Assembly: GCF_000353285.1 (NCBI RefSeq) | Contig: NZ_KB731324.1 | Span: 2,064,577 to 2,128,576 of the forward strand | Source of the DNA: Leptolyngbya boryana PCC 6306 | GTDB lineage: Bacteria > Cyanobacteriota > Cyanobacteriia > Leptolyngbyales > Leptolyngbyaceae | Direction: 5' to 3' | DNA length: 64,000 bases | Shown: in pieces, positions 1,133 through 8,274 of the stretch | Position numbering within the stretch: position 1 is the stretch's first letter | How the letters are laid out: each line of letters starts with the position of its first letter | Translations under genes and position numbers: made by a program | The notes under the pieces: generated by a model | What the model was told of the DNA's origin: nothing | Database searches by the model: none | Seen by the model: the letters and a program-made list of their open reading frames with translations, nothing else

Positions 1133-2338
1133 ATGCGAACTCTGGCTGAAATCAACGAGAAAATTCAACGCGGAAGTGCGATCGTACGAACTGCCGAAGA
1201 GGTGAAAGCTCAAGTAGCAGAAATCGGAGTCGCTGCAACCGCAAAGCTCGTTGATGTCGTGACGACAGGCACGTTCGAGCCAATGGAGTCTTCGGGGGCA
1301 GTGTTGAACTTAGGACAAACTGATCCCCCGATCAAAATTCGCCAGTGCTGGGTCGATGGAGTGCCCGCTTATGCAGGATTTGGCGCAGTCGATTTGTATC
1401 TAGGCGCGTCGCAGGTTGTAGAGTATCCGGGCGGATCAGAGCCGTTAGATCATGACGATCGAGAATCCCCAGATGCCAGACAGCGACAGCGCGGTGGAGG
1501 GCATGTGATCGAGGATCTGATTGCCGGACGATCGGTAACGTTGCGAGCACTCGGACAGGTGACTGACTGCTATCCGCGATCGTCTTTTGAAACCAGCATT
1601 ACGCGGGACACGATTAATCAATTCTATTTATTCAATCCTCGGAATCTGTACCAGAACTTTATCGTGGGCGTGAATGGGGGCGATCGCCCTTTATTTACAT
1701 ATCTAGGCGCGCTACAGCCCCAATTGGGCAATGCTGTTTTCTCAAATCCGGGTGCAATTTCGCCGCTGTTGAACGATCCAGATTTGCAATTGATTGGCAT
1801 TGGGTCACGGATTTTTTTAGGTGGGGGAATCGGCTATGTCGCTTGGGAAGGAACACAGCATTTTCCACTTCAAAAGCGCTTGCCCAATCGGACACCCATT
1901 GGACCCGCTTCGACACTTGCATTAATTGGTGATGCAAAACAGATGGATGCGCGCTGGGTGCGAGGCTGCTATTTCCGCGGCTATGGAGCTTCTTTGATGC
2001 TTGGGGTGGGAATTCCGTTGCCTGTGCTGAGCGAAGAGGTGATTGCCCATTGTGCGGTGCAAGATCAAGATTTGGTTGCTCCGATCGTTGATTTTTCGAT
2101 TCCGCGCCGAGTCCGTCCCACCTTTGGACTGGTGAACTATGCCCAGTTAAAGTCTGGGAAATTAACGATCGATGGCAAAGTCGTGCGAGTCGCACCGCTG
2201 GCAAGCCTTTATCTGTCGCGCCAAGTTGCAGTCGAGCTAAAACACTGGATTGAGGCAGGCACGTTCACATTAACTGAAGCTGTTGCCGCCATTCCCAACG
2301 ATCGCGCATTTATTCCCCAAGATATGCGAGGGATGTAA
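1133..2338 (+). CDS. Homocysteine biosynthesis protein, DUF39 family
   Basis: This 401-aa protein has the features of the DUF39 family: an N-terminal stretch beginning RTLAEINEKIQRG, the motif TTGTFEPMESSGA, a Gly-rich region FLGGGIGYVAWEGTQH and a conserved C-terminal segment ending near KLTIDGKVVRVAPL. In methanogens family members take part in making homocysteine from aspartate semialdehyde and sulfide, and cyanobacterial copies carry the same name by homology. No usual C-terminal ferredoxin or CBS partner gene is adjacent. The start is the ATG at 1133. Family membership is confident; the reaction in this organism is inferred. Confidence 0.85.
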   Translation: MRTLAEINEKIQRGSAIVRTAEEVKAQVAEIGVAATAKLVDVVTTGTFEPMESSGAVLNLGQTDPPIKIRQCWVDGVPAYAGFGAVDLYLGASQVVEYPGGSEPLDHDDRESPDARQRQRGGGHVIEDLIAGRSVTLRALGQVTDCYPRSSFETSITRDTINQFYLFNPRNLYQNFIVGVNGGDRPLFTYLGALQPQLGNAVFSNPGAISPLLNDPDLQLIGIGSRIFLGGGIGYVAWEGTQHFPLQKRLPNRTPIGPASTLALIGDAKQMDARWVRGCYFRGYGASLMLGVGIPLPVLSEEVIAHCAVQDQDLVAPIVDFSIPRRVRPTFGLVNYAQLKSGKLTIDGKVVRVAPLASLYLSRQVAVELKHWIEAGTFTLTEAVAAIPNDRAFIPQDMRGM

Positions 2339-2411: not shown

Positions 2412-3536
<1,125 letters not shown>

Positions 3537-3555
3537 AAGTAACAAGCAGCTTGCA

Positions 3556-4386
3556 ATGGATTTAGTTAGTCAAACCAAATGCTTCGGAGGCTCGATCGAG
3601 GTTTATTCTCATGCCTCGATCGCTTGTCAGTCTCCGATGAAATTCTCGATCTATTTGCCGCCCCAAGCAAAAGCGCGATCGCTGCCAGTGTTGTACTTTC
3701 TCTCTGGCTTAACCTGCACCGAAGAGAATTTCATGGCAAAAGCAGGCGCACAACAGTTTGCCGCAAAGTATGGGCTGATCTTAGTCGCGCCAGATACTAG
3801 CCCCCGCAACACCGGAATTGCGGGGGAAGATGAGGATTGGGACTTTGGAACTGGCGCAGGATTCTATGTCGATGCAACGGCTGAACCTTGGAGCCAGCAC
3901 TATCGCATGTATAGCTATATCGTCGATGAACTCCCAGAGTTAATTGGTGAAAACTTTCCAGTCTTACGCGATCGACAAAGCATCACCGGACATTCAATGG
4001 GCGGACATGGTGCATTAATCTGCGCCTTGCAAAATCCCGATCGCTATCGATCGGTTTCTGCCTTTGCGCCGATTTGTGCCCCGATACAATGTCAGTGGGG
4101 ACAGAAAGCATTCTCAAATTACTTAGGAGCAAATCAGAACGACTGGCGATCGTATGATGCGAGTGAGCTAGTTCGAGTCGGACAATTTCCCGGATCGATT
4201 CTCATCGACCAAGGCAGCGAAGACAAATTCCTCGCGAATCAGCTTTTGCCAACCGTATTTCAGCAAGCCTGTGCAGACGTTGGACAATCATTAAATCTGA
4301 GAATTCAACCCGGCTACGATCATAGCTACTATTTCATTGCTTCCTTCATTGAAGATCACATTCGCTTTCATGCAGAAATGCTTTGA
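3556..4386 (+). CDS. fghA: S-formylglutathione hydrolase
   Basis: This alpha/beta hydrolase of the esterase D family splits S-formylglutathione into formate and glutathione. The nucleophile elbow GHSMGGHG puts the catalytic serine at 147, with Asp223 in DQGSEDKFL and His256 in GYDHSYYF. The motifs [12 protein letters not shown] and [10 protein letters not shown] are typical of the family, and 276 aa is the usual length. It follows frmA by 19 bp and is almost certainly co-transcribed with it. The last 19 bp overlap the 3' end of the convergent sensor kinase gene. A strong hairpin lies inside the coding sequence at 3801-3826. Confidence 0.96.
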
Positions 4387-7070
4387 CGGATCGGAATTTC
4401 AATCCAAAATTCAGTTCCCTGCCCCGGTTCAGAATGACAGTTTAGACTGCCCTGATGGTCTCGCACGACCACTTCATGACTGATCGCTAATCCCATGCCT
4501 GTTCCTTTTCCGATCGGTTTCGTTGTAAAAAACGGATCAAAGATACGCAGCTGAGTTTGGGCTGAAATTCCGCATCCATTATCTGCGATCGAAATGAGCA
4601 CGCGATCGTCATGAACTTGTTTTGTGCGGATACGAATTGTGGGATTCTCGACCGTTTCAAGCGCATCGATCGCATTACTTAGCAGATTCATAAACACCTG
4701 ATTCAACTGCCCTGCATAGCATTCAACTGGGGGCAATTCCGCATATTCCCTAATCACCTCGATGCTGCAATCTCCCCCGTTTGGTTTCAAGCGATGCTGC
4801 AAAATCAGCAGTGTACTTTCGATTCCTTCATGGATATCAACTGGCTTCATTTTAGCTTGGTCAAGCCGTGAGAAATTGCGGAGAGAGAGCACGATTTCGC
4901 GAATTCGTTCTGTTCCGACTTGCATTGAAGCCAGTATTTTAGGTAAGTCTTGGCGAACAAACTCAAAATCAATCGATTCGATCAGATCAATCACTTCTGA
5001 TCGAGGTTCAGGATAAGCTGCGCGATAAGCGTCAAGCAGCCTCAGCATATCGATCACATAATGATTCAAATAGTTGAGATTGCCATGAATAAAGCTGACC
5101 GGATTGTTAATCTCATGGGCGACTCCAGCGACTAATCGCCCTAAGCTCGACATCTTTTCAGTTTGAATCAACTGCGCTTGAGTATGCTTCAAAGAATGCA
5201 GCGTTGCCTCGATCTGCTGAGCTTGATGCTGAGTTTGCAAGAGCAATTCGGCTTGCTCAAGTCCGATCGTCAACTGAATCGCAACTTGTTTCACAAATTG
5301 AATCTCATGCTCTGTCCAATTGCGCGGACGATCGCATTGATGCACACACAATAATCCCCACAGTTCATCTCCTCGTAAGATGGGCGCAATCAAATGGGCA
5401 CGAATCGCAAGGCGCTCTAAAATTGCTAAATAACAAGGTTCGATTACGAGTGCTTCCACATCTGAGATCGAACTCACCCGACCATGCCGATATTGGGTTG
5501 CAAACCGTTCTCCAAAGCAATAATCTTCGATACGCGTGCCCAAAACAGAGGAAAGTCCTGAAACCATATTTTCAGCAATCACCTGCCCTGTATTGTATTG
5601 ACGATCTAAATCAAATTGATAAACGCAGACTCGATCGACATTCAACGATCTCCGAAGCTCTTCGGTTGCGGTCGCACAAATCTGCTCAACTTGCAGCGAT
5701 TTCCGCATATTCGTCACCACACTGAACAGAACATGCTGCTGCTCAGTTGCTTTCTGCAATCGAGCCGTACGCTCTTGAACTTGAATCTCTAAACTGGCAT
5801 TCAGCTTTTGCACATGTTGATGCGTTTCATATTGTTGAATCGCGCTTGAAAACTGATGAGCGATCGCGCAACCTAGCTCTAAATCTCCTGCTGTCCAGGG
5901 CTGAATTTGTCCCCGTCGAGATTCACACCACGCCTTAAAAGACTGACGCGGATAAAGCTGCCGCTCGTCGGAGCTAATTTGCCCCGCCCAAAGAATCTCA
6001 GTTTCAATTTCATCTCGAAAGATAGTGAGATAGCCAAGCAATTCTCGGCGATACCACAAGGGCAAAATCAGTACCCCTCGGATTTTGAGCGATCGGAATG
6101 CAGGGTAGAACTTTTGCAATGCTGGCTCTTGATATAAATCCGCGATCGCCCAAACTGCATCTTGCTCAGACTGAAACTTATCTTGCCAAGCACTGTCTTC
6201 TTCGAGCAGCACAAATTCAGCCGTTTCGATACGCTCATCTCTAGGAGCCATTGGCTGGCTCCCACATTGAAACAATCTGACACAAGCACTCGGCAGTTTT
6301 AGATTGCGAGGAGAATGTTCGACTGCCAATGATGTGGCATTCACCCACAGTCGTCCCCCTGACCCTGCGAAGGCTGAAACTGCTGTTTCTAAAGCAGCTT
6401 GAAGTTCAATCGTCAAAAGCGAATGCAGTAAGCAACTAATGCGACGTAGCGTCGATTCGCGATCGGCTTTAGCACGCGCTTGTTCGATCAAATGATACTG
6501 AGCAATCGCTACAGTCAGCAAATCAACGACCATCTGCAGCGCACTCACTTGTGCGTCTGAAAACGATCTCGCTTCAGCATGGTGAATGACAAACAATCCC
6601 CAAAGCTTGCCTTCTTGCAAAATTGGGACGACCAGCGAAGACTGAATTCCCATTGCCATCAGATATTCAGCATGACAGGCGTTCAGCGGACGATAGCGGA
6701 TTTCATCGGGTGCAGTAGAATCAATTCCCGTTTGTCCAATGCGACGTTCAGCCACATTGACAATCGATCGCGCTCCGGTTCTTGCAAACAGTTCGCGTGC
6801 TCCAGGGGGAATATCATTCGCAGGAAATGTTAACCCTAGCAGCGAAGGGAGGCGTTGTTCGCAAATCCACTCTGCGACTACGGTTCCCGTTTCATCAGGA
6901 TTAAACTGGTAGATTTTTACCCGATCACAACTTAAAACGGCACTGATTTCCTGAGCGATCGCAGCTAAAAGTTCAGATAAACTTTTCGACCTCCGAATCC
7001 AGTGTGTCACTCGCCCAAATAGTTCTGTATTCGGAGATGAAACATTCGTCTGAAACTCATCGCTCGTCAT
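4368..7070 (-). CDS. Phytochrome-like GAF-domain sensor histidine kinase
   Basis: This is a 900-aa soluble sensor kinase. GAF1 (about residues 20-195) has the phytochrome-type [12 protein letters not shown], with Cys132-His133 where phytochromes and cyanobacteriochromes attach a bilin. Residues about 210-415 resemble a PHY domain ([13 protein letters not shown], then YPRQSFKAW). GAF2 (about 440-605) has [13 protein letters not shown], with Cys546 in the bilin position but Tyr replacing the following His. A coiled coil leads to a HisKA domain with phospho-acceptor His652 in GVAHEINNP, and an HATPase domain with [10 protein letters not shown] and GTGMGLAIS. There is no receiver domain and no transmembrane segment. 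The gene runs convergently into fghA. Kinase identity is certain; chromophore binding is inferred. Confidence 0.9.
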
Positions 7071-7217
7071 TTAATTCCGCCCTATCCGTACAAGTTAACT
7101 TCTATAGAAACTCTTAACTAGCGTGTTTCTATTTTTAGCCTCAGTATGGGCAGAGTTTTTTGGAAATCTACATGCAGAACGCAGGTTTTCGACTAATAAT
7201 CATTCTTTTTTGAGCGA

Positions 7218-7574
7218 TTAACGACCATTCTTTTTTGAACGATAATCTTGACATTCATTTGCGGCTGATGTCATCACAACATAAGGATTAACAGCACATT
7301 TCATGTAATGATTATTACTAAAGAATTGACATTTCTTACAGGGAAGTCGAGCGAGTTCACGGCTAACTCTCGTCGATTTCTGGTTGTACTTCCAAGTATC
7401 AGCAATCACATAGATTAAGCCAATCCAAATCGCAATAAAGCATAAGGGAATCAGCACCATTCCCCCGTCTGGCTGAGGAGAATTCGAGGGGGTAGAAGTG
7501 CGTTCGGGCGGGATTTGTGCGATTTGAGTGTTGGCAGTTGGGCTAGGTTGTTGAGGAGATAGGTAGAGAGACAT
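7218..7574 (-). CDS. Small membrane protein of unknown function
   Basis: The family of this 118-aa protein was not recognised. The N-terminal 38 residues are rich in Pro, Ser and Thr, followed by one clear transmembrane segment (MVLIPLCFIAIWIGLIYVIA, about residues 39-58). The basic C-terminal tail carries four Cys (PCKKCQFF, MKCAVNPY, NECQDYR), which could bind a metal or form disulfides. Tail composition and length resemble small cyanobacterial membrane proteins. The start ATG at 7574 faces the divergent DUF4168 gene. A near-perfect 25-bp tandem duplication covers the stop codon. Confidence 0.6.
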   Translation of the reverse strand: MSLYLSPQQPSPTANTQIAQIPPERTSTPSNSPQPDGGMVLIPLCFIAIWIGLIYVIADTWKYNQKSTRVSRELARLPCKKCQFFSNNHYMKCAVNPYVVMTSAANECQDYRSKKNGR

Positions 7575-7782
7575 AAGGCTAGAGGGGACGCAAAAAGACT
7601 GACCTACTCACTGTTTTATCGATCGAGCTTTTTGACTATCTCTATCAAGGGGACTGATTTCTATCAATGTGGGTATATCTACAGATGGACTTGCTGAAAG
7701 ATGTAACGCGGATCAAAGGTCTGATAACGGATGTGAATCGCAGGTTGCCTCGATAAGATGGCGCAAAACATTGGAGATTAAA

Positions 7783-8274
7783 ATGATTCAGCGACTTCTC
7801 TTGAGTGGATGTGTCTTGGTGATAGGTGGACTGTGTCAGATGCCTGTCCAAGCTCAAACTCCAACCAGCAAACCTGCTCCAACAAGCCAGCCTGCGAATC
7901 AGACGGTGACTCCTGCCGAAACTCGCCAATTTGCAAATGCAGTCAAACAGGTCTTAGCGATCAGCCGTGAAGCAGAAAAACAGGCAACTCAGGCAATTCA
8001 ATCGGAAGGATTAACCGAGCAACGGTTTGATGAGATCTTCCGTTCTCAAAACAATCCGCAGCAAAAGCCATCTAAACCCGTGGAAACAGGGGAGCGGCAA
8101 AAGTACGATCGTGTGATTGCAAAATTGACCCAAATCAGCAAGGACAATGATTCTAAGGTAGAAACTGCGGTGAAAAAAGAAGGGCTAGAAATCCCCCGAT
8201 TCAATCAAATTTTCCAGATTGTCCGATCGAATCCCCAATTGCGCCAGCAGGTTCAAGACATGATTCGCCAATAG
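7783..8274 (+). CDS. DUF4168 secreted protein
   Basis: The protein starts with a Sec signal peptide (RLLLSGCVLVIGGLC, cleavage near VQAQ), then a Pro/Thr/Gln linker and two similar helical halves of the DUF4168 type (FANAVKQVLAISREAEK ... QSEGLTEQRFDEIF and YDRVIAKLTQISKDN ... KKEGLEIPRFNQIF). The internal duplication is clear. The ATG at 7783 is chosen over the longer frame from 7669 because it puts the signal peptide first. DUF4168 proteins are common in cyanobacteria and have no settled function. A second family member lies at 31918-32331. Confidence 0.8.
   Translation: MIQRLLLSGCVLVIGGLCQMPVQAQTPTSKPAPTSQPANQTVTPAETRQFANAVKQVLAISREAEKQATQAIQSEGLTEQRFDEIFRSQNNPQQKPSKPVETGERQKYDRVIAKLTQISKDNDSKVETAVKKEGLEIPRFNQIFQIVRSNPQLRQQVQDMIRQ

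Follow-up and report, generated by a model that had tools for sequence, protein, structure and literature searches.

What does the kinase gene at positions 4368-7070 of this 64,000-nucleotide stretch of the Leptolyngbya boryana PCC 6306 genome (the window) enable the cell to sense, and do the formaldehyde genes beside it belong to the answer? A preliminary description of the window read the product as a phytochrome-like kinase with two GAF domains holding candidate bilin cysteines, considered the order of its domains unusual and raised antisense interference between light sensing and formaldehyde removal. From its domains, motifs, conservation and lineage, we find it very probable that the protein is an All2699-type knotless phytochrome histidine kinase with a second colour-sensing GAF domain, most likely of the two-Cys class.

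Sequences and comparisons

Matches to the kinase at an E-value of 1e-60 were found in 42 of 42 genomes, many of them spanning only the second GAF domain and the kinase. Of the other 41 genomes, 20 contributed stretches around the best matches. This selection does not include the long matches L021 in G032 (residues 5-812) and L022 in G010 (residues 235-895), an additional copy in G025 or the matches on the kinase side, L024-L030. A further set consisted of the 79 best loci among 482 relatives, with several per genome in some cases (for example, three from UBA11371). Seven of these 79 (L051-L055, L095 and L115) were omitted as repeats of genomes already included, and five (L090, L095, L125, L127 and L128) yielded no ORF by the pattern used. 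The 89 proteins compared are thus 21 orthologues, the L. boryana kinase included, and 68 others. Because the ORF pattern includes Cys-His, conservation of GAF1 is given from the 21 orthologue rows only, one of which (L037) lacks the region of the GAF1 Cys-His. For the second GAF, 142 bilin-type GAF domains that follow PHY were drawn from 88 of the 89 proteins and placed, with seven reference domains, in one maximum-likelihood tree of 149 rows; counts of these domains refer to related species and are not independent events. Papers marked "excerpt" are cited from passages of their text.

A phytochrome module joined to a histidine kinase

The gene (4368-7070, minus strand, as are all features within it) starts with ATG and encodes a knotless-phytochrome/cyanobacteriochrome histidine kinase of 900 amino acids, in which Pfam matched GAF twice (E-value 2.6e-48) and also HATPase_c. 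The HisKA-HATPase kinase (residues 637-897; 4380-5162) is assigned from Pfam and alignment, as HisKA alone scored 22.7 bits, under its cut-off of 26.9; His652 (5115-5117) is the phospho-acceptor predicted from the alignment. The AlphaFold model of the whole protein has a mean pLDDT of 75.3 and a pTM of 0.43.

The N-terminal domain, GAF1 (residues 15-200; 6471-7028), is a phytochrome chromophore domain by Pfam and by its matches to the structures 6oza and 8w26. Alignment locates a DIP motif at Asp86-Ile87-Pro88 (6807-6815), of which Asp86 is nearly invariant, and sets Cys132-His133 (6672-6677), the expected site of the phycocyanobilin thioether, against the Cys of 6oza. This pair is as quoted in the preliminary description and is kept in 20/20 orthologue rows that hold the region, the L. 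boryana kinase included. In six congeners with the entire domain, GAF1 is 69-76% identical to that of L. boryana. Pfam at E-values up to 1 detected no PAS domain ahead of GAF1, which begins near residue 15.

The segment that follows (residues 201-425; 5796-6470) was correctly located in the preliminary description, but "PHY-like" was too weak a name, as Pfam identifies it as PHY. PF00360 matches residues 311-413 with an E-value of 1.7e-12 and a score of 47.5 bits (cut-off 27), a match that spans only profile positions 72-180 of 183 and that exceeds the cut-off in a genome-wide search too. PHY was matched in all 21 orthologues of the alignment, the L. boryana kinase among them. The tongue (residues 350-392; 5895-6023), placed by motif alignment, contains all three of the motifs W(G/A)G, PRXSF and WX(D/E), as W361AG, P374RQSF and W381CE; residues 358-379 have low confidence in the AlphaFold model (pLDDT <50). 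The WAG motif is kept in 21/21 orthologue rows (L. boryana included), PRXSF in 15 (it is altered in L040, L041, L042, L046, L049 and L050) and the acid of WX(D/E) in 17, with Gln in the other four. With six rows altered in PRXSF and four lacking the acid, these two motifs are not strictly kept across the family.

The best sequence relatives with solved structures are phytochromes. GAF1 matches SyB-Cph1 of Synechococcus OS-B' (8w26; PMC11264168, excerpt) at 1.2e-66 over the entire query and all2699g1 (6oza) at 1.2e-52, and GAF1-PHY matches Cph2 (4bwi) at 4e-43. In comparisons of the model, GAF1 superimposes on 6oza with Z 24.9 and an rmsd of 2.4 over 183 aligned residues (52% identity), residues 12-421 superimpose on the GAF-PHY of 8w26 with Z 30.7 and an rmsd of 3.5 over 356 residues, and Foldseek also ranks 8w26 first. 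On domains and motifs, the protein fits a knotless phytochrome, that is, one of the PAS-less Cph2/All2699 type.

The L. boryana genome contains two matches to PHY, this kinase and a strong one in a separate open frame of 798 amino acids, and a single gene for a ferredoxin-dependent bilin reductase (PF05996, 3.0e-77), presumably PcyA. A paralogue of the second GAF and kinase lies about 20 kb before the start of the window, in an open frame of 1075 amino acids (G000:C1:2042951-2044396); it is 51% identical to the kinase described here over residues 432-897.

The second GAF belongs to a lineage with two candidate cysteines

Is the second bilin-type GAF (residues 444-615, GAF3 in All2699 numbering; 5226-5741) equipped to carry a chromophore as well? 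Pfam and structure matches to cyanobacteriochromes define the domain. Its sequence matches PPHK (6oap) at 5.8e-33 and miRFP670nano at 1.3e-28, its model superimposes on TePixJ (4fof) with Z 24.3 and an rmsd of 1.7 over 162 aligned residues, and it is 58-66% identical in six congeners. The preliminary description reported Cys546 in EPCYLAI with Tyr in place of His, and both are as quoted (Cys546-Tyr547; 5430-5435), Cys546 aligning as the canonical bilin Cys. In alignments to structures of bilin proteins, Cys132 and Cys546 both fall in the attachment column and neither lies outside the chromophore pocket, which bears out the phytochrome-like reading of the kinase. The one-Cys description of this domain was incomplete, however, as it overlooked Cys518 (5517-5519) in DYCF, a DXCF motif. 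Cys518 is 28 residues before Cys546; in TePixJ the cysteines of DPCF and CH are likewise 28 apart and occupy the same columns, which makes Cys518 a candidate second Cys. It is present in 7/7 rows of the genus that hold the second GAF, the L. boryana row included.

Among the 142 domains, 39 carry a Cys at the DXCF position, with CY at the bilin site in 31, CH in 7 and CD in 1; the other 103 lack it (98 CH, 1 CY and 4 other). The Tyr noted in the preliminary description is therefore the usual residue in the DXCF set (31/39). In the tree, 38 of the 39 DXCF-Cys domains, that of L. boryana among them, fall in a single group of 43 (support 100/93) that also contains five domains without this Cys, and 98 domains without a second Cys cluster with AnPixJ, 6bhn and Slr1393g3, in a group of 101 (100/99). 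The thirty-ninth, from L048, is on a long branch near 8k9o, and the placement of the long branches of TePixJ, 8k9o and L048 is unsure.

By sequence, the second GAF thus belongs to a two-Cys, DXCF-like lineage and not to the red/green lineage of L076. The third GAF of L076, whose GAF1 is 95.8% identical to all2699g1 (6oza), is of the red/green type, with DTYL and CH and so without a second Cys, a combination that the L. boryana domain lacks. The All2699 chassis is therefore shared between the two proteins and the class of the third GAF differs. Several longer Nostoc homologues have both classes in tandem. A His after the bilin Cys, which Tyr547 replaces, is doubtful as a strict part of the DXCF definition, since the related GAF 8k9o, which we assume to bind bilin, has Leu there. 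Neither the gene nor a DXCF-plus-Tyr lineage is named in the titles and abstract openings listed by our searches of openly licensed papers.

Cys518 in its DXCF motif makes the two-Cys class the most likely one for this domain. A lesser but substantial possibility is that bilin is held by Cys546 only, that Cys518 forms no adduct and that Tyr547 turns the site into a sensor that fluoresces, switches weakly or reverts fast and reports how strong the light is, not its colour. The Tyr selected in the engineered H87Y variant of miRFP670nano, a fluorescent relative, stacks on biliverdin (PMC6336887, excerpt), which suggests that the second GAF may switch poorly. NpF2164g5_BV4 is described as fluorescent and without photoconversion, and the primer printed for it encodes Cys-Tyr by our translation (PMC7504144, excerpt). 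The DXCF second Cys is also dispensable for isomerisation in some cases, as described for AM1_6305g1. However, H87Y comes from an engineered protein that holds biliverdin and is of a different lineage, and we take both Cys-Tyr precedents as leads only. Cys518 is present in every genus row that holds the domain, even in L031, which has Asp after the bilin Cys, whereas Cys465 and Cys482 are variable within the DXCF domains. We also considered Cys-Tyr as a mark of biliverdin binding and dropped it, as the biliverdin changes in the AnPixJg2 pair 3w2z/5zoh leave CH untouched.

A variable slot between PHY and the kinase

The order GAF1-PHY-GAF-histidine kinase is not unusual: All2699 shares it, and it occurs exactly in 41 of the 89 proteins compared, the L. 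boryana kinase included. Thirty-one others have two GAFs between PHY and the kinase, 11 have three, one has none and the remaining five ORFs have no kinase match, so that PHY, one to three bilin-type GAFs and a kinase are found together in 83/89. Four ORFs of 652-657 residues without a kinase match (L110, L122, L124 and L129, three of them exactly 652) consist of GAF1, PHY and a GAF; the kinase may be separate or lost, or these may be frameshifts.

Within the genus the second GAF is labile, as it is absent in one congener. The orthologue L036:5903-8047 (G017) is 168 residues shorter, in frame, and the stretch between PHY and kinase has 59 residues, against 227 in the L. boryana kinase and 226 in L033 and L034. 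In the alignment, the PHY helix of L036 runs straight into the kinase helix as a continuous helical linker. As other congeners keep the second GAF, loss is more likely than original absence. Since 168 residues are 24 heptads, a coiled-coil register would hold in L036, although one case proves no rule. In a second orthologue, L040:6654-9305, the second GAF has neither cysteine (AQRG and SF), GAF1 keeps its Cys-His and the tongue reads TQLSF where others read PRXSF. Near the orthologues of L035 and L036 there are additional weak GAF matches (L035:989-1696 and L036:10187-10936), hinting at a second GAF protein close by.

That the domain is dispensable in these species would fit a second GAF that binds no bilin and has a structural or redox role, with light sensed by GAF1-PHY only. 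Cys579 (39/39) and Cys575 (37/39) are also kept in the DXCF set and could hint at thiol chemistry. We nevertheless consider this unlikely, as Cys546 is kept in 39/39 DXCF-Cys domains and 99/103 of the others, and the nearest structures are cyanobacteriochrome GAFs. Because Cys518 is what defines the set of 39, its own 39/39 carries no information.

Formaldehyde genes as probable chance neighbours

Pfam assigns the product of adhC (2427-3536) to the zinc alcohol dehydrogenase family and that of fghA (3556-4386) to an esterase family; their formaldehyde function is the usual assignment, which we assume here. Just upstream of the two is an HcyBio gene (1133-2338, plus strand; PF01837, 2.6e-145). 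As the preliminary description noted, the convergent kinase and fghA genes overlap at their 3' ends, by 19 nt (4368-4386), and L031 (G022), the closest relative, shares both this gene order and an overlap of 19 nt. Although fghA is present in 8/8 genomes of the genus, it lies beside the kinase gene only in these two, and in G017 and G018 the two genes are megabases apart on one contig. Among the 92 other loci, which are approximately 5 to 16 kb long, so that remoter neighbours escape, fghA is near the kinase gene in two (L031 and L064, in the latter upstream and divergent) and adhC in one. A promoter/terminator scan of positions 3500-7900 gave no clear excess over shuffled sequence (5 against 6.2, sd 2.7; 4 against 3.8, sd 2.3), and one promoter-like match on the plus strand starts within the overlap, at 4383. 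On synteny, we reject as very improbable the proposal that antisense interference where the two genes overlap couples light sensing to formaldehyde removal.

The most conserved neighbour of the kinase gene, by synteny and alignment, is the gene upstream of it (7218-7574, minus strand), which encodes 118 amino acids. Its product has a hydrophobic stretch, by reading, and the motif PCKKCxFF...KCAV...C, gave no match in a Pfam search and has four cysteines that are invariant in 10/10 aligned copies. This gene adjoins the kinase gene in the same direction in 7/8 genomes of the genus (the exception, G021, has its contig end within the kinase gene) and in three genomes outside it, a total of 10 of the 42 genomes searched. 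It is near the kinase gene in 9/92 other loci, and some relative of it is present in 37/42 genomes, often away from the kinase. It is thus a better-conserved neighbour than the formaldehyde genes. Divergent from it is a gene for a DUF4168 protein (7669-8274, plus strand), which is near the orthologue in 6/92 loci.

Discussion

How might the two photosensors act together? Bilin binding, colours, refolding of the tongue and control of the kinase are inferred here by analogy with characterised relatives. Phycocyanobilin attached to Cys132 would allow GAF1 to switch between red- and far-red-absorbing states, and the PHY tongue, with its WAG, PRQSF and WCE motifs, would seal the chromophore and read its state. 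From there the signal would travel by way of the post-PHY helix and the second GAF to the kinase, altering autophosphorylation at His652. A bilin on Cys546 would provide a second colour input, and in a two-Cys domain reversible addition of Cys518 to this bilin would generate a blue-absorbing state.

The closest known system is All2699 (AphC) of Nostoc sp. PCC 7120, the source of 6oza, in which three GAFs precede a histidine kinase. Phycocyanobilin is bound both by GAF1 (638/685 nm) and by GAF3 (645/595 nm), and GAF2 resembles PHY and contains the three tongue motifs (PMC6696110, excerpt). The L. boryana protein resembles it in having a bilin Cys in GAF1, a PHY with tongue, a third bilin GAF and a histidine kinase; it differs in that all2699g3 is reported as red/orange, whereas the L. 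boryana domain has DYCF and CY and falls in a separate group of the tree (with L076 representing the All2699 side). In Anabaena 7120, all2699 (aphC) appears in a FurA table at -14.3 (PMC12282138, excerpt).

SyB-Cph1 and Synechocystis Cph2 share the PAS-less GAF-PHY module and provide the best structural matches, but their solved pieces are GAF-PHY only. Cph2 has GGDEF/EAL domains and an additional cyanobacteriochrome GAF and is not known to have a histidine kinase. TePixJ resembles the second GAF in the position of its DXCF Cys, 28 residues before the bilin Cys, and in HQC after the last strand; unlike the L. boryana kinase, it is a chemotaxis-type protein with His after the bilin Cys, and in the tree it lies outside the L. 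boryana lineage, although on a long branch. PPHK, the top PDB match of the second GAF, is also a dual-sensor kinase with a cyanobacteriochrome GAF, but it lacks the DXCF Cys (DQYF) and has His after the bilin Cys. The other sensor of PPHK is not known to be a phytochrome module.

The L. boryana kinase is itself one more All2699-type kinase, a type already known from Nostoc. More tentatively, the second GAF may represent an undescribed two-Cys lineage (DXCF plus Tyr) that serves as an exchangeable cartridge between phytochrome module and kinase, its replacement leaving the heptads of the signalling helix in register, so that the phytochrome would be gated by blue/violet light, by red/orange light or, as in L036, by neither, depending on the species; we regard this as possible but doubtful. 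The family nonetheless offers a natural series in which one phytochrome-kinase chassis is combined with zero to three colour-sensing GAFs, drawn from two separate classes. This series allows one to ask how a second photosensor placed in series affects the output of a phytochrome, with L036 as a natural deletion control, and the two-Cys, Tyr-containing bilin lineage deserves to be screened for new colours or strong fluorescence.
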